From assembly GCF_035593985.1 (NCBI RefSeq), contig NZ_CP141587.1, positions 434,001 through 498,000 on the forward strand: a DNA stretch of 64,000 bases. Direction: 5' to 3'. Positions 12,701 through 42,117 of this stretch are shown here, one piece after another (the stretch's first letter is position 1; every line of letters starts with the position of its first letter). The position numbers were made by a program, and so were the translations under genes. This stretch comes from Sphingomonas sp. LY29 (GTDB taxonomy: Bacteria; Pseudomonadota; Alphaproteobacteria; Sphingomonadales; Sphingomonadaceae). The notes beneath the pieces were generated by a model that was not told the DNA's origin, searched no databases, and was given only the letters and a program-made list of their open reading frames with translations.

Positions 12701-13497
12701 TCGCCCACGCCGACCTCGGGCTGCTCGACGGCTTTGAGCGGGCGCTGATCAACCGCCGACTGACGATGGTCTACCAGCCCAAGGTCTCGCTGACCGACGG
12801 CAATCTGATCCGCGTCGAGGCGCTGGTGCGGTGGGAAGATCCGGAGCTCGGCCCCGTCCCGCCCGCGCGCTTCGTGCCGCTCGCCGAGCAATATGGCCTG
12901 ATCGACCAGCTGACGAGCTGGGGGCTCGATACCACGCTTCGCCAGTGGCATCGCTGGCGCGAGCAGGGCCTCGACACCCGCCTCGCCTTCAACATCAGCG
13001 CGCTCAGCCTCAATGAGCTCGATTTTCCCGACTTGGTCGAAAAAATGTGCCGCGCGCTAGAGGTGCCGACAAATCGCCTCGTGCTAGAGCTGACCGAGGG
13101 CTCCACCCAGTCACTCATCAACCTGATGGACACGCTGACCCGCTTCCGGATCAAGGGCATCGACCTTGCCATCGACGATTTCGGAGTCGGCTATTCGACG
13201 CTGATGCAGCTTCGCCAACTGCCCTTCACCGAACTCAAGATCGACCGCTTCTTCGTCGACGACGCCACCACGTCGAAGGACAGCGCGCTGATCGTCAAAT
13301 CGGTGATCGACCTGGCGCACGGCCTCGGCATGACCGTCACGGGCGAAGGCGTCGAAACCGAGGCCCAGTTACGCCTGTTGCGCTCGCTCGGCTGCGATGT
13401 GGCGCAGGGCTATTTCCTCGCCCGCCCGCTGGAGCCCGCCGCGCTCGTTCCGTGGAACGCCGAGTGGCAGGAGCGCTGGCCAGCGCTCGCCGCCTAG
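12697..13497 (+). CDS. EAL-domain c-di-GMP phosphodiesterase
   Basis: 266 residues, almost entirely an EAL domain. Catalytic and metal residues are all present: EALVRW (Glu41), NIS, ELTE, the DDFGVGYS loop, KIDRFF, EGVE and QGYF. It should hydrolyse c-di-GMP to pGpG. It lacks GGDEF, PAS and membrane parts, so regulation probably comes from the overlapping receiver protein. The GTG start overlaps the upstream stop; the stop CTAG is shared with the convergent aminotransferase. Confidence 0.9.
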   Translation: MIAHADLGLLDGFERALINRRLTMVYQPKVSLTDGNLIRVEALVRWEDPELGPVPPARFVPLAEQYGLIDQLTSWGLDTTLRQWHRWREQGLDTRLAFNISALSLNELDFPDLVEKMCRALEVPTNRLVLELTEGSTQSLINLMDTLTRFRIKGIDLAIDDFGVGYSTLMQLRQLPFTELKIDRFFVDDATTSKDSALIVKSVIDLAHGLGMTVTGEGVETEAQLRLLRSLGCDVAQGYFLARPLEPAALVPWNAEWQERWPALAA

Positions 13498-14648
13498 ACG
13501 AACAGCGCCCGGGCGCGCGCCATCGCCGCCACGCCCGCATCGATCGTCATATCCTGTTTTGCAAAGCAAAGCCGAACCAGATGGTCGGGCTTCCGGTCGT
13601 CGGCGAACGGCGACAGCGGCACGACCGCGACGCCGGCCTCTGCGACCGCGCGCTTCGCGAAGGTCTCGTCGTCGACCATGATCCCGGACGCAGCGAGATC
13701 GACGCACAGGAAGTAGGTCGACGCGCTCGGCAACACCGCAAAGCCCGCCGCTTCCAGCCCCGCCACCATGCGGTCGCGCGCCGCCGCGAATCGCGACCGC
13801 ATCGGCGACAGCCAAGCATCGCCGTCCGCCAATCCGAACGCCACTGCCGCCTGCAGGTTCGGCGCCGATGCGAAGGTCAGAAACTGGTGCGCCCGCGCGC
13901 CGAGCGTCGCGAGCTCGGGCGCCGCGATCATCCACCCGATCTTCCAGCCGGTCAGCGAAAAGATCTTTCCCGCCGATCCGCATTTGAAGGTCCGCTCCGC
14001 CATGTCGGGGAGCGAGGCGAACGGGACGAACTCCTGCCCGTCGAGCAGGATATGCTCCCACACCTCGTCCGAAATCACGATCAGGTCGTGCGCGCGCGCC
14101 ACCGCCGCGACCGCTTCCAGCTCCTCGCGATCGAACAATCGTCCCGTCGGATTGTGCGGATTGTTGAGGATAATTGCGCGCGTTGTCGGCGTGATCGCCG
14201 CTTCCAGGGCAGCCTGTTCGATCCGCCATTCCGGCGGCAGAAGCGCGACCTCCCTGACAACTCCGCCTGCGCGCCGCACCAATGGTGCGTAAGCGTCATA
14301 AGCGGGGGTCATCAGCACCACTTCGTCGCCCGGCGAGACCGTCGCCAGGATCGCTGCCGCCAACGCTTCGGTCGCGCCGCTCGTTACACACACTTGCGAG
14401 GCGTCGATCGTCACGCCGTGGTGCCGCGCGTAATGATCGGCGACCGCGTCCCTCAGCGTTGGAAGCCCGCGCGACGGCGCATATTGGTTCGACCCCTCGC
14501 GCACCGCGCTCGCGGCCGCGTTGAGAATTTCCTCGGGCCAGCCGAAGTCGGGAAACCCCTGCCCCAGATTGACTGCCCCATGCTTGGCGGCGGCAAGCGA
14601 CATTCGCTCGAACACGCTCGTGTCCATCGTTTCGTACAGCGGGTTCAG
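13494..14648 (-). CDS. class I/II aminotransferase (methionine/kynurenine aminotransferase-like), apparent CTG start
   Basis: PLP enzyme of about 384 residues. Motifs: [12 protein letters not shown], the NNPHNPTGR loop, VISDEVWEH (Asp for the PLP ring) and [17 protein letters not shown], which contains the PLP lysine. The pattern matches YbdL/KAT-type enzymes acting on methionine or aromatic amino acids. The first in-frame ATG is 14627, but translation from CTG at 14648 gives the family-like N-terminus NPLYETM and has GGAGG exactly 7 nt upstream (14656-14660), overlapping the CaiB stop as CTGA. ATG 14627 lacks a ribosome-binding site at that spacing. The gene ends in a CTAG overlap with the EAL gene. 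Confidence 0.9.
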
Positions 14649-15727
14649 CGTCGGTCCTCCAGAAGGTCGGCAATCGCGGCCTCGTCATAGCCAAGCTCGG
14701 CCAGGATCGCCGCGCCATCCTCGCCTTCGCGTCGCGGCGGATCGGGGCGCACTGTTGGCGTGCCCGAATATCGCGGCGCGGGCGCGGGCTGAAACACCCC
14801 GTCGATGTCCAGGAACGTGCGCCGCGCGATATTGTGCGGATGGACCGGCGCTTCGCCAAGATCGAGCACCGGCGCCACGCACGCGTCGGTGCCTGCAAAA
14901 TGTGCCGCCCAGTCGTCGCGACTTCGAAGCGCGATCACCGCCGCAATCTCCTCGCGGCCCGATCCCGGCGCGAGCGCGAGCCCGCGATACAGCGCCGCCT
15001 GGAACTGCGGCTCGATTGCGCCGATGCTCAGGAACTTGCCGTCGAGGCAGCGATAGACGCCGTAGATCGCCTCGCCCCCGTCGAGCAGATTCGCCTCACG
15101 CTCGTCGCGCCACAGCCCCGCGGCGCGCATGCCGTAAGTCAGCGTGCCCAGCAGCGCGGTCCCGTCGGTCATCGCCGCGTCGATCACCTGCCCCTTGCCG
15201 CTCTTGGCAACCTCGAGCAGCGCCGCGACCATCCCGAACGCCAGCATCATCGCGCCGCCGCCATAGTCGCCAAGATAATTGACCGGTGCGACCGGCCGCT
15301 CCGCCGGGCCGATCCCGTGCAGCAGCCCACTCAGCGCGACATAGTTGATGTCGTGTCCGGCATCGGTCGCCAGCGGCCCATGCTGGCCCCAGCCCGTGAT
15401 GCGCCCATAGACCAATCGGGGATTGGCGCCGATCAGCTCGTCCGGCCCCAGCCCCAGACGCTCCATGACGCCCGGCCGATACCCTTCAATCAGCCCGTCC
15501 GCCGTCGCCGCCAACTTGCGCACGATCGCCCGGCATTCCTCGCGCTTCAGGTCGAGCGAAATCGACTTGCGGTTGCGAAGCAGCGGGTCGCCCGGCACCC
15601 CGATCATTCCCTTGCGCTCGACGCGGATCACCGTCGCGCCATGGTCGGCAAGCATCATCGCCGCGAACGGTCCCGGCCCAAGCCCTGCCATTTCGACGAT
15701 CGTATATCCGGTCAGCGGTCCAGCCAT
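14645..15727 (-). CDS. CaiB/BaiF CoA-transferase family, alpha-methylacyl-CoA racemase type
   Basis: 360 residues, the short AMACR length rather than the 400 or more of true CoA-transferases. Residues corresponding to the AMACR catalytic His and Asp are present: His125 in [12 protein letters not shown] and Asp154 in [14 protein letters not shown] enzymes invert the alpha-methyl stereocentre of branched acyl-CoAs so that beta-oxidation can proceed. The divergent acyl-CoA dehydrogenase at 15903 could act on the product. The stop overlaps the CTG start of the downstream aminotransferase. Confidence 0.88.
14646..14660 (-). promoter_or_regulatory. ribosome-binding site and CTG start in CTGA overlap (aminotransferase)
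   Basis: GGAGG (14656-14660), a 7-nt spacer, then CTG (14648-14646), whose last two bases plus A form the TGA stop of the CaiB gene. The spacing is ideal for CTG and too long (28 nt) for the first ATG at 14627. Confidence 0.65.
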
Positions 15728-37683: not shown

Positions 37684-38187
37684 TCAGGCTTCGCCTGCGG
37701 TGTCAATCAGCGCCGCCGAAATGGCCTCGGTCGGCGATTTTCCGCCCCACAGCACGAATTGGAACACCGGGTAGAAGCGTTCGCACTCCTCGATCGCGGC
37801 TTCGCTGATCGCTTCCGCCTGCTCGAACGGAAGCGTGTCATTCTCGGCGACCAGCGCGGCATGCCGGAACACGATCAGCCCCGACCCCGACCACAATTCG
37901 AAGTGACCGAGCCAGAGCTGCTCGTTGATCAGCCCGATCGTCTCGTACATCGCGGCGCGTTTTTCGACGCCGACCTTAATGTCGGGAAAGGCGAGGAACT
38001 GCAGCACCTGGTCTTCGCTGCGCCATACGCCCCGAAGCTCATACTGTGCCCAACTTCCCGTCGCCGAGGCAATGATCTCGCCTTCGCCCGCGCGTTCGCA
38101 CGCCCAACCGCGCGCCTCGAAATACTGCTCGAGCATTTCAATCGGCGCGCCGTCGTCGCGTTCGTCTTGGTCGGCTTCCTCGCTCAG
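37684..38187 (-). CDS. YbjN-domain protein, apparent CTG start
   Basis: 167 residues from CTG. The YbjN domain (IEMLEQYFEARGW, SWAQYELRGVWR, QFLAFPDIKV, INEQLWLGHFELW) is related to bacterial sensory-transduction/chaperone-like folds; exact function unknown. The first ATG (38136) lies within the conserved domain start and has no ribosome-binding site. CTG 38187 forms a CTGA overlap with the upstream UbiK-like stop, has GGAG 7 nt upstream (38195-38198), and adds an acidic N-terminus (SEEADQDERDDG) of the sort seen in homologues. Confidence 0.85.
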   Translation of the reverse strand: MSEEADQDERDDGAPIEMLEQYFEARGWACERAGEGEIIASATGSWAQYELRGVWRSEDQVLQFLAFPDIKVGVEKRAAMYETIGLINEQLWLGHFELWSGSGLIVFRHAALVAENDTLPFEQAEAISEAAIEECERFYPVFQFVLWGGKSPTEAISAALIDTAGEA

Positions 38188-38480
38188 AGCGCGGCTCCGT
38201 CGATCGGCGGGGTCTTCGCAGGCTTGGCCTTCGGCTTTGCCGCGCCGGCTTCGAGCGCCGCGATGCGTGCTTCCAACAGGTCGTTCTGCTCGCGAGCGGC
38301 CATTGCCATCGCCTTGACCGCGTCAAACTCTTCGCGGCTGACGAAGTCCATACCGCCGACCCACTCGCGCATGCGCTCGCGCATCGAGCCCTCGGCCTCG
38401 CGGCCCATGCCGGCCATCGTTCCGGCGACCCCGTTCATCATCTTGACCAGGTCGTCGAGCATTCGGTTCTGCGACTGCAT
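38184..38480 (-). CDS. UbiK/BMFP-domain accessory protein
   Basis: 98 residues: a short amphipathic N-terminal region (QSQNRMLDDLVKMMNGVAGTM), a coiled-coil segment (FVSREEFDAVKAMAMAAREQNDLLEARIAALEA) and a Lys/Pro/Ala tail. This is the BMFP/YqiC family; the E. coli member, UbiK, assists ubiquinone synthesis and binds lipids as a trimer. The function here is inferred from family only. ATG 38480 follows the tspO stop by one base. Confidence 0.85.
   Translation of the reverse strand: MQSQNRMLDDLVKMMNGVAGTMAGMGREAEGSMRERMREWVGGMDFVSREEFDAVKAMAMAAREQNDLLEARIAALEAGAAKPKAKPAKTPPIDGAAL
38185..38198 (-). promoter_or_regulatory. ribosome-binding site and CTG start in CTGA overlap (YbjN gene)
   Basis: GGAG (38195-38198), 7-nt spacer, CTG (38187-38185), overlapping the UbiK-like TGA stop. 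Same geometry as at 14646 and 40184. Confidence 0.6.
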
Positions 38481-38481
38481 C

Positions 38482-39015
38482 TTATTCTCCAATGATCCCC
38501 AGCGGCGCAGCGTCGGCCCCGGGATTGAGCTTGCCCGTCTCATAGTTGAGGGCGGTGGCAAGGCACAGCCATAGTAGATAGGGAAGCAACAACCATCCTG
38601 CCACCGGGCGGATGCGCCGGAACAGATTGGCCGTCGCGGTCGCCACCAGCAGAATGACAAGGATCACGACCAGCGCGATCTCGATCATCTGCGCGCCGAA
38701 AAAGATCGGCGACCAGGCGAAGTTTAGCGCGAGTTGCACGAAGAACAGCGTCAGCGCAGTGCGACGCATCGGTGACGGCGGCTCGTTGAGGATCGCGGCC
38801 AGCGCGATGCCCATCATCGTGTAGAGCGTCGTCCAAACGGCCCCGAACGCCCAGCCCGGTGGCTGGAAGGCTGGCTTGACAAGGTCGGCATACCAGCCGT
38901 TCTCGAACCCGCTGTTCGATACAATGCCCATCACGGATCCGACGATGACGATCGCCGGGACGGTGATCAGCGCTTTCTTCCACAAACCGCGATCGTCGCG
39001 GGTTTCCGTCGTCAT
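38482..39015 (-). CDS. tspO: TspO/MBR family membrane protein
   Basis: 177 residues with five membrane helices. The conserved blocks WYADLVKPAFQPPGWAFGAVWTTLYTMMG, FFVQLALNFAWSPIFFG and LLLPYLLWLCLATALNYE are the TspO pattern, with Trp-rich ligand pocket residues. TspO proteins bind porphyrins and sterols and affect tetrapyrrole handling under oxygen or stress. ATG 39015 overlaps the tlyA stop (ATGA). Confidence 0.93.
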   Translation of the reverse strand: MTTETRDDRGLWKKALITVPAIVIVGSVMGIVSNSGFENGWYADLVKPAFQPPGWAFGAVWTTLYTMMGIALAAILNEPPSPMRRTALTLFFVQLALNFAWSPIFFGAQMIEIALVVILVILLVATATANLFRRIRPVAGWLLLPYLLWLCLATALNYETGKLNPGADAAPLGIIGE

Positions 39016-39755
39016 GCACGTTCCTCCCTGATGGCGCCGAGCAGAAACTCGACATTCCCCTCCGGCCCCGTAATCGGGCTCGGCTCGATCCCGCAAACGC
39101 GCCATCCCTTGGATTCGACCCATGCGGCGGCATCGGCGCAGACGCGCTCATGGATCGCCGGATCGCGGACGACGCCGCCCTTGCCCACCTCGCCTCGCCC
39201 CGCCTCAAATTGCGGCTTGACGAGCGCGACCAGCATTCCGCCCGGAAGCGCCAGGTCGAGCGCGGCATTCAGCACCTTGTGAAGCGCGATGAAGCTGGCG
39301 TCGCACACGATGATTTCGATGGCCTCGGGCACGATCGACGGATCGAGATCACGGGCATTTGTCTGCTCGTGGACGACTACCCGAGGGTCTGTGCGGAGTT
39401 TCCACGCCAACTGATTCGTACCGACGTCGATCGCAAATACCTTTGCGGCACCGCGGCTGAGCAGGACATCGGTGAAACCGCCGGTCGAACTGCCGACGTC
39501 GAGCGCGGTCGCGCCGGTCACATCGAACCCGAAGTGCGTCAATCCATGATCCAGCTTGATGCCCCCGCGCGACACCCAAGGGTGGTCCTTGCCCTTCACC
39601 GTCACGTCGGCGTCGTCGGCGATCAGGTCGCCAGCCTTTGCCACCGCCCGATCGCCGACGAAGACCTTGCCGCCCATGATCAACGCTTGCGCGCGGGTCC
39701 GGCTTTCGGCGAGGCCCCGCGCAACGAGCAACAGGTCGGCGCGAAGCCGGGTCAC
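39012..39755 (-). CDS. tlyA: TlyA family rRNA 2'-O-methyltransferase / hemolysin-like protein
   Basis: 247 residues: an N-terminal S4 RNA-binding domain (RLRADLLLVARGLAESRTRAQALI) and a FtsJ-type methyltransferase domain with SAM motif ALDVGSSTGGFTDVLL and VKPQFEAGRGEVGKGGVV. TlyA of mycobacteria methylates 16S and 23S rRNA; other members are called hemolysins. GTG 39755 is chosen because it overlaps the upstream stop as GTGA and has AGGGGA about 5 nt before it; an in-frame ATG at 39776 adds seven residues. Confidence 0.9.
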   Translation of the reverse strand: MTRLRADLLLVARGLAESRTRAQALIMGGKVFVGDRAVAKAGDLIADDADVTVKGKDHPWVSRGGIKLDHGLTHFGFDVTGATALDVGSSTGGFTDVLLSRGAAKVFAIDVGTNQLAWKLRTDPRVVVHEQTNARDLDPSIVPEAIEIIVCDASFIALHKVLNAALDLALPGGMLVALVKPQFEAGRGEVGKGGVVRDPAIHERVCADAAAWVESKGWRVCGIEPSPITGPEGNVEFLLGAIREERA

Positions 39756-40186
39756 GCCGATCCCCTGATCGACCATCCCGCCATCAGGTCGAGATGCCGG
39801 CCAAGGTCCGCAACGCTCGGATCAGGGCCGAGCGGAAAGGTCGGGCGGACGTCCTGGCCGCGCATGGCGCCCCAGAAACGCGTGACGATTCCTTCGATTT
39901 CAGGCCGGTCGATCCAGATCATGCTTTCCAGACGGTCGTCGGGCCGCGGCGTCAGCGGGTCATGATAATGCGGCGCGAGCTGCTGCCATAGGAACCGCGT
40001 CGTCGTGGGCGTCACGCTGGCGCGAAGCATCGCCTTCTCGAACGACGCGAGATCGCCACGCGACCGTTTGCGCGACAGCCGTGCATGCTGCCGCCGCGCC
40101 ATCGGCATCGTCAGAAAGAACAGAATGAACAGACCGATCAGCCCGGCAACCAGCCATTGGCCGAGGGTCCAGGTCGCGAAGTTCAG
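39752..40186 (-). CDS. small membrane-anchored hypothetical protein, apparent CTG start
   Basis: 144 residues from CTG. The first about 28 residues are a membrane helix ([19 protein letters not shown]), followed by a basic stretch ([14 protein letters not shown]) and a soluble domain with no recognised motif. The first ATG in frame (40108) would remove almost the whole helix. No ATG, GTG or TTG lies in frame before it until deep inside dxs. CTG 40186 overlaps the dxs stop as CTGA and has GGAG 7 nt upstream (40194-40197). Orientation by the positive-inside rule puts the C-terminal domain in the cytoplasm. Confidence 0.8.
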
Positions 40187-42117
40187 GCGATCGCTCCGCT
40201 TTCCGCGTCCGCGCCGAGGTCGTTGCGCCGAAGCGCCTTCAGCACGGTTTCGACGATGTGCGGCGCATTGAGCCCCGCCTCGTCATATTGCGTCATCGGA
40301 CTGTTCTGGTCCTGGAACACGTCGGGCAAGCGCATGGTGCGCAGCTTGAGACCGGAATCGATCAGCCCCTCGTCGCTGGCGACCGTCAGCACGTGCGCGC
40401 CGAACCCGCCCACGGCTGCCTCTTCGATCGTCACGGCAACTTCGTGCGTGGTCAGCAACTTGCGGATTAGGTCCTCGTCGAGCGGCTTGGCAAAGCGCAT
40501 ATCCGCGACGGTGGTCGATAGCCCCTTGGCCTCGAGCATCTCAGCGGCCTTTTCGGCCTCTTCAAGGCGGGTGCCCAGCGAGAGGATCGCGACCTTCTTG
40601 CCTTCGCGAACGATGCGGCCCTTGCCGATCTCAAGCCGCTGTGGCGTCGCCGGCATGTCCAGGCCGCGTCCGTTTCCGCGCGGGTAGCGCACCGCACTGG
40701 GGCCGCTGTCGTGCAGCGCCATCGTGTGGACCATGTGGGTCAATTCGACTTCATCGGCCGCCGCCATCACCACGAAGTTGGGCAAGGTGCAGAGATAAGC
40801 GAGATCGAAAGCGCCCGCGTGCGTGCATCCGTCCGCCCCGACCAAGCCGGCGCGGTCCATTGCAAAGCGGACCGGAAGATTCTGAATCGCGACATCATGC
40901 ACGACCTGGTCGTAGGCGCGCTGTAGGAAGGTCGAGTAGATCGCGCAGAACGGCCGATGCCCCTGCGCTGCGAGGCCAGCCGCAAAGGTGACAGCATGCT
41001 GCTCGGCGATGCCGACGTCGAACGTGCGCGTCGGGAATTCGGCCTGGAATTTGTCGAGCCCGGTGCCTGACGGCATCGCCGCGGTGATCGCGACGACCTT
41101 TTCGTCGCGCCGCGCTTCGGCGCTGAGCGCATCGGCGAACACCGCCGTATAGCTCGGCGGGCCGCCGCCCGGACCCTTGTCCTGCTTGCCCGACACGATG
41201 TCGAACTTGACCACGCCATGATATTTGTCGGCGGCGGATTCGGCGGGCTCGTAGCCTTTGCCCTTCTTGGTCACTGCGTGGATCAGGATCGGACCGTCGG
41301 CCGCGTCGCGGACATTCTCCAGGATCTCGACCAGCCCCTCGACGTCATGGCCGTCGACCGGACCGACATAGTAGAAGCCCAGTTCTTCGAACAAGGTGCC
41401 GCCCGTCGCCATGCCGCGGGCATATTCCTCTGCCTTGCGCGCCGCCTTCTCGACCGGGCGCGGAAGGCGCTTGAACACCTTGCGCGCGAAATCGCGGGTT
41501 TTGAGATATTTGCCTGACGATACCAGCCGGGCGAGATAATGCGACAGGCCGCCCACCGGCGGTGCGATCGACATGTCGTTGTCGTTGAGAATGACGATCA
41601 GCCGGTTTCCGGCCTCCTGCGCATTGTTCATCGCCTCATATGCCATGCCCGCCGACATCGCCCCGTCGCCGATCACCGCGATCGCGCGGCCGGGCCGGTT
41701 GGCAAGCTTGTTGGAAATGGCGAAGCCGAGCGCGGCGGAAATGCTGGTCGAACTGTGCGCCGCGCCGAACGGGTCATACTCGCTTTCGGCGCGCTTGGTG
41801 AAGCCGCTCAGCCCCCCGCCCTGCCGAAGCGTGCGGATCCGGTCGCGGCGACCGGTGACGATCTTGTGCGGATAGCATTGGTGTCCGACGTCCCAGATCA
41901 GGATGTCGTCGGGGGTGTTGAAGACGTAGTGGATCGCCACCGTCAGTTCGACGACGCCGAGACCCGAGCCAAGGTGCCCGCCCGACTGCGAAACGGCGGA
42001 GATCATTTCCTGCCGGAGTTCATCCGAAAGCTGCGGAAGTTCAGCCTTCTGGAGCTTGCGAATGTCGGAGGGTAGGTCGACTTGGTCGAGCAGCGGCGTG
42101 GAAGGACGTTCGGACAT
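40183..42117 (-). CDS. dxs: 1-deoxy-D-xylulose-5-phosphate synthase
   Basis: 644 residues. Dxs condenses pyruvate and glyceraldehyde-3-phosphate with thiamine diphosphate, the first step of the MEP isoprenoid pathway. Motifs: [13 protein letters not shown] (catalytic His), the ThDP motif [17 protein letters not shown] ... [15 protein letters not shown], and [15 protein letters not shown] (catalytic Glu). It is followed by a chain of overlapping genes down to proC, and preceded 38 nt away by nadR on the same strand. Confidence 0.97.
40184..40197 (-). promoter_or_regulatory. ribosome-binding site and CTG start in CTGA overlap (gene after dxs)
   Basis: GGAG (40194-40197), 7-nt spacer, CTG (40186-40184), the last two bases plus A forming the dxs TGA stop. 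The clearest of the three CTG cases, because no standard start codon exists before the membrane helix. Confidence 0.65.

Follow-up and report, generated by a model that had tools for sequence, protein, structure and literature searches.

Several ordinary proteins of Sphingomonas-like bacteria appear to start at CTG, mostly at gene overlaps

Introduction

The closest described systems to the gene junctions considered here are coupled pairs with an NTGA (-4 nt) overlap, which are translated by termination-reinitiation (PMC6728339, PMC12548453); this spacing is by far the commonest between genes in the account of PMC12548453. Our junctions resemble these pairs in the 4-nt overlap, in a Shine-Dalgarno (SD) motif inside the upstream gene and in co-orientation, yet differ in that the first base of the start is C, and CUG is absent from the main text of PMC12548453, as CTGA is from that of PMC6728339. 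A CTG start combined with a good SD, as found here, is described for the rep gene of RepFIB plasmids, which is often annotated at a downstream GTG, and the same paper cites CTG-annotated starts for 20 of nearly 85,000 genes (PMC11983097). Whereas that case concerns a single plasmid gene, here several chromosomal genes, birA included, carry CTG at orthologous places across a genus. A survey of start-codon switches in 36 prokaryote groups reports changes to CUG from 2 of 61,358 AUG, 1 of 5,080 GUG and 1 of 2,468 UUG starts (PMC5622118); CUG is almost absent from these figures, in contrast to the present loci, where CUG outnumbers every other codon at several orthologous starts. Annotation bias may have lowered the CUG counts of both PMC11983097 and PMC5622118. 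Counting against a CUG reading, an upstream CUG with SD at Caulobacter dnaA gives toeprints, yet is described as unused in vivo (PMC8443254). A literature search turned up no account of CTG starts in sphingomonads or alphaproteobacteria. As far as this search can tell, what appears to be new is that CUG recurs at orthologous starts within one bacterial genus, and in part within its family, with a probable link to the last codon of the upstream gene.

Standard gene callers are generally limited to ATG, GTG and TTG starts. In the window, the stretch of 64,000 nucleotides of Sphingomonas sp. LY29 analysed here, an initial annotation proposed that a small membrane protein behind dxs starts at a CTG overlapping the dxs stop, that two other genes share this geometry beyond chance, and that gene callers would misplace all three starts. 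Here, we examine these starts by comparison with homologues from the genus and its family.

Results

On the minus strand of the window, dxs ends in GGA GCG ATC GCC TGA (protein end GAIA*), as read directly. Its TGA occupies 40185-40183 and the spacer between GGAG and CTG 40193-40187, which bears out the proposed CTGA overlap and 7-nt distance; among the Gly codons of conserved genes from three genus samples, GGA has a share of 11.1%. The frame opened by this CTG has no Pfam match and is followed by a gene that we take to be tlyA, a name its Pfam domains support (Table 1). In agreement with the claim that no canonical start precedes the hydrophobic stretch of 16 residues, the first in-frame ATG, GTG or TTG is the ATG at 40108, 26 codons past the CTG and beyond that stretch. 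This ATG was rejected as the start of the membrane protein, since the conserved hydrophobic stretch would be lost. The end of the SD motif and the spacer (40187-40194) together read GCGATCGC, an 8-base palindrome that is present in 9 of 12 membrane-protein loci.

Table 1. Positions in the window of the genes, start codons and SD motifs discussed
Feature	Coordinates	Strand	Remarks
dxs	40183..42117	-	ORF; Pfam DXP_synthase_N; 3' ends compared in 30 genus loci
SD motif GGAG inside dxs 3' end	40194..40197	-	7 nt before CTG
CTG, putative start codon of small membrane protein	40184..40186	-	overlaps dxs TGA as CTGA
Small membrane protein, 144 codons from CTG	39752..40186	-	N-terminal hydrophobic stretch by eye
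First in-frame ATG of small membrane protein	40106..40108	-	rejected as start
tlyA-like gene	39012..39776	-	after membrane protein; Pfam S4 and FtsJ
Gene upstream of ybjN (Pfam BMFP)	38184..38480	-	ends CTC TGA
GGAG before ybjN CTG	38195..38198	-	7 nt spacer
ybjN (Pfam YbjN)	37684..38187	-	from CTG 38187-38185
Gene upstream of aminotransferase (Pfam CoA_transf_3)	14645..15727	-	stop TGA 14647-14645
GGAGG before aminotransferase CTG	14656..14660	-	GAGG 7 nt, GGAG 8 nt away
Class I/II aminotransferase (Pfam Aminotran_1_2)	13494..14648	-	from CTG 14648-14646, CTGA overlap

Homologues of the membrane protein occur in 12 of 71 genus genomes, the window genome being one of the 71, at E <= 0.001. The dxs stop lies within a CTGA in all 12 loci, including two whose proteins are merely 29-33% identical, and 10 of them have GGAG at 7 nt. 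Four residues, W11, G15, L19 and L22, are invariant across 10 aligned proteins and all lie before the ATG at 40108; no homologue beginning at this downstream ATG was seen. Over codons 8-26 of 10 loci, differences at codon positions 1, 2 and 3 number 300, 193 and 425, respectively. In two loci (L006 and L010), a TTG or ATG lies 4-5 codons into the frame.

More than one kind of downstream gene begins at the CTGA of dxs. Across 30 genus loci, the CTGA at the dxs junction begins the membrane protein in 11 (in two of these, a TTG or ATG follows within a few codons), the tlyA-like gene in three and a thioesterase-like gene in two. The three tlyA-like cases come from three other species, in which this gene lies directly behind dxs; one of these frames closes after 101 codons. 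Of the remaining junctions, one shows GTGA, three contain an ATG or TTG among their first 13 codons, one (L232) has a hydrophobic frame of 31 residues (32 codons with the CTG) behind the CTG of the dxs CTGA overlap, and in nine there is no coupling of this kind. As a separate observation, L247 and L248 have a tlyA-like frame after dxs but GTA GCC AAG ATC at the dxs stop, with no NTG.

The ybjN gene of the window, which lies behind a BMFP gene that is presumably ubiK, shows the same geometry, its CTG overlapping the upstream stop as CTGA. It is present in 67 of 71 genus genomes, and 30 loci were cut out for start comparison. Among the relatives that a ybjN scan lists by name are the Sphingomonas species S. 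edaphi, S. cremea, S. rhizophila and S. alba. The start site is CTG in 28 of them and TTG in the other two (L040 and L042), with an SD-like match 7-8 nt upstream in 27 of the 28 CTG loci, three of these being merely AGGG or GGGG. No in-frame ATG, GTG or TTG precedes the conserved motif, within 40 codons or to the stop, in 19 of the 30 loci, and an in-frame stop lies one codon ahead of the CTG in four (L018, L019, L029 and L031). Relative to the ybjN frame, the upstream stop is at +1 in 26 loci, 0 in three and +2 in one, and it overlaps the CTG as CTGA in just 13 of 30; it is thus found in all three frames, and the distance from SD to CTG stays at 7-8 nt while the stop moves. Seven of the 28 CTG loci (L033-L039) have a GTG or TTG 2-3 codons upstream, too near the SD, and in L095, a named relative with such an upstream GTG, the CTG is replaced by CTC, so that the start in this subgroup may be GTG or TTG. 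By our reading, 18 of 20 other genera of the family have an ATG at the site or no more than 3 codons from it.

For the aminotransferase, the claim of shared geometry stands for the CTGA overlap and falls for a GGAG at exactly 7 nt, the place taken there by GAGG. The aligned start codon is canonical in all 29 relatives cut out (ATG in 13, GTG in 10 and TTG in 6), which provides the homologues with ATG at the CTG position that the initial annotation had envisaged. Among the loci cut out, CTG is the start in the window genome only, where an ATG follows 7 codons later.

A codon-model scan and a list of NTGA-frame pairs, both described below, led to two more such genes in the genome of the window, presumably hflX and birA as their Pfam domains support, both of which begin with CTG (L254 and L286). 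Judged by these comparisons, it would have at least five CTG starts. The 30 genus loci of birA have CTG in 26, TTG in two, CTA with ATG as the next codon in one and ATC in one. Of the 26 CTG loci, 25 lack a canonical codon both upstream (as far as a stop or over 40 codons) and among the first 14 codons. The gene before birA, which from its reading frame we take to be nuoN, ends in TTC TGA in all 26 and in TTT TGA in the two TTG loci. Among 20 other genera, birA starts are CTG in eight, TTG in six, GTG in one, ATG in four and ambiguous in one; the eight CTG starts follow a Phe-ending gene, whereas the TTG, GTG and ATG starts follow other endings. One of these eight (L311) has a TTG three codons on and another (L325) has no overlap. 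No clear SD is seen at birA. In L292, the birA of genome G011, an in-frame TAG is followed by no NTG up to the GSTN motif, and ATC stands at the aligned start.

At hflX, NTGA is found at the start in all 30 genus loci cut out, with CTG in 18, GTG in eight (five exactly at the aligned codon) and ATG in four (two exactly there), while the aligned codon in 20 other genera is TTG in 18, ATG in one and CTG in one. No canonical codon precedes the motif in 15 of the 30 genus loci; L249 and L258 have a GTG 11 codons in, and L271 has TTG and GTG upstream. The window genome's hflX has no SD of 4 nt or more. The gene before hflX, which we take to be hfq from its upstream reading frame, resembles by eye two Hfq copies in one protein in L249 and L254.

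To look for other cases, five 400-kb genus stretches with 1579 predicted genes were scanned with a codon model for a coding-like score >= 6 before the first canonical start. Such sequence precedes 32 genes, of which G032 accounts for 18; they do not include the aminotransferase. A CTG lying on the onset or one codon away from it, together with an SD match at 7 nt, was found for the membrane protein in G000 and G009 and for ybjN in G000, G009, G012 and G032, while G070 has one CTGA gene near the onset, methyltransferase-like (70235), with a weak SD match at 7 nt (GGTGA). When six other near-cognate codons were checked, two ATC at spacing 4 only, of which one belongs to the G012 ybjN case, turned up outside G032, and several more with an SD match near the onset within it. 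Genes in the G032 sample (L199-L218) often look frame-disrupted, including a split aminotransferase, perhaps through assembly errors. The NTGA-frame pairs listed begin with A in 145 cases, C in 74, G in 62 and T in 29; many of the 74 CTGA-frame pairs read CTGATG, i.e., are TGATG overlaps, and were discounted as CTG starts.

A control of 362.8 kb from 20 other genera (325 genes), one fifth the size of the genus sample and with birA and hflX outside it, contained no convincing CTG start with SD; its single CTGA with a 4-nt match, in L099, is followed by an ATG 10 codons later. Leave-one-out start columns from 220 ortholog groups gave CTG in 10 of 610, no clear excess, and did not support the reading; these CTG columns were mostly internal columns and shifted starts. 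Two onset scans proved too noisy and were set aside, upstream genes in another frame having been aligned as well. Individual candidates were also dropped: groups 161 and 123 as internal columns, group 144 as ambiguous, a ruvX-like group (132) for its ATG four codons upstream and G070 387042 for an ATG directly before the CTG. The window region was chosen because of its three genes, so their density must not be extrapolated. Of the proposal that the shared geometry exceeds chance, what survives the scan of 1579 genes is that the geometry by itself is suggestive; the homologues carry the argument.

Discussion

Taken together, the comparisons make it very probable that the membrane protein starts at the CTG at 40186 and that this bacterial group uses CUG as a working fourth start codon. 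The position of the start, the SD motif, the overlap and their conservation can be followed from locus to locus, and CTG interchanges with ATG, GTG and TTG at orthologous starts. Homologues agree with a CTG start for each of the three window genes, as the initial annotation had it, and birA and hflX are alike in this respect; the homologues place the N-terminus at the CUG, and in some of them ATG, GTG or TTG stands there. All three window genes form -4 nt pairs in which start and stop share NTGA and the SD motif lies within the upstream gene, the latter feature being missing from the genome's own hflX and birA. The genome's own membrane protein and ybjN have no usable canonical start nearby.

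We infer that initiation itself takes place at these codons, with fMet as the first residue, coupled to the upstream gene and with drift of the wobble base as the cause. A ribosome ending the upstream gene at UGA would start at the overlapping CUG; alternatively, a 30S subunit held by the GGAG 7 nt upstream may start there, in both cases presumably with fMet-tRNA. In an NTGA overlap, the first base of the start doubles as the wobble base of the last sense codon of the upstream gene, so that the last amino acid of that gene, together with codon preference, would set the start codon. Where the upstream gene ends in Phe (TTY), as nuoN does before birA, just TTG or CTG are possible, and a GC-rich wobble preference would favour CTG over TTG. 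By contrast, dxs ends in Ala (GCN), which allows any first base, so that C is not forced and wobble locking fails there; GCC and GCG account for 40.6% and 41.2% of Ala codons. Judged from these codon patterns, a tie between CUG starts and the last codon of the upstream gene is likely.

Translation might instead begin further in, at the ATG at 40108 or at some other canonical codon inside the frame, which would leave the conserved region ahead of it untranslated. This would spare the need for an unusual start codon, and the early in-frame TTG or ATG in L006 and L010 fits it, but we consider it very unlikely: the preceding region is conserved as protein, as its four invariant residues in 10 sequences and the predominance of third-position differences indicate, an internal canonical start of birA would delete the GSTN motif in 25 of the 26 CTG loci, and in none of the three window genes is the next canonical codon preceded by an SD of 4 nt. 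A fusion of the downstream frame to the upstream gene by frameshift or readthrough is more improbable still. The single frame relation to dxs shared by all 12 membrane-protein loci, and that to the upstream gene shared by 26 of 30 ybjN loci, would suit such a fusion; however, the other four ybjN loci differ in this relation, three having the upstream stop in the ybjN frame, while SD and CTG stay 7-8 nt apart. Moreover, different genes begin at the same dxs CTGA, and no slippery run is seen at the dxs site.

A further possibility, which we take seriously while leaning against it, accepts CUG as the start but attributes its retention to selection for weak downstream translation rather than to wobble drift. 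In its favour, ybjN has CTG or TTG, never ATG, in 30 of 30 genus loci, 17 of them without a stop overlap, and the plasmid rep gene is described as using CTG with a good SD for low expression (PMC11983097). On the other hand, hflX interchanges CTG, GTG, ATG and TTG, the aminotransferase CTG is found here alone among the loci cut out, and the CTG of birA accompanies a nuoN ending in Phe.

As to a possible cause of CUG starts, the initiator tRNA offers a lead. In the window genome (L329, G000:C1:1612500-1612640), its anticodon stem has the pairs A29-U41, G30-C40 and G31-C39, as we take these positions to be numbered. A search of 21 genomes located the CCT side of the stem with A29-U41 in 16, some of which belong to other families of the order; the other five had no match to the pattern. 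An altered G30-C40 pair in the E. coli initiator tRNA is reported to weaken discrimination against CUG in vitro (PMC11497404). As A29-U41 is a different pair and the variant extends wider than the genus, the initiator tRNA is merely a lead. Tentatively, and with some doubt, one may picture a family with relaxed start-codon discrimination, in which CUG is a normal fourth start and wobble bases at overlaps set starts freely; A29-U41 of the initiator tRNA, or IF3, may underlie it.

The N-termini of these CTG-start proteins are probably easy to mis-annotate. Mechanically, the predicted misplacement holds, as ORFs limited to ATG, GTG and TTG begin at 40108, 38136 and 14627. Gene callers so limited would misplace the N-termini of at least five genes here and of their orthologues in many relatives, including BirA, whose gene is essential. 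Beyond annotation, the orthologous series of CTG, TTG, GTG and ATG starts offers natural material on the strictness of bacterial start choice, and it also bears on how the last codon of a gene constrains the start of its neighbour.
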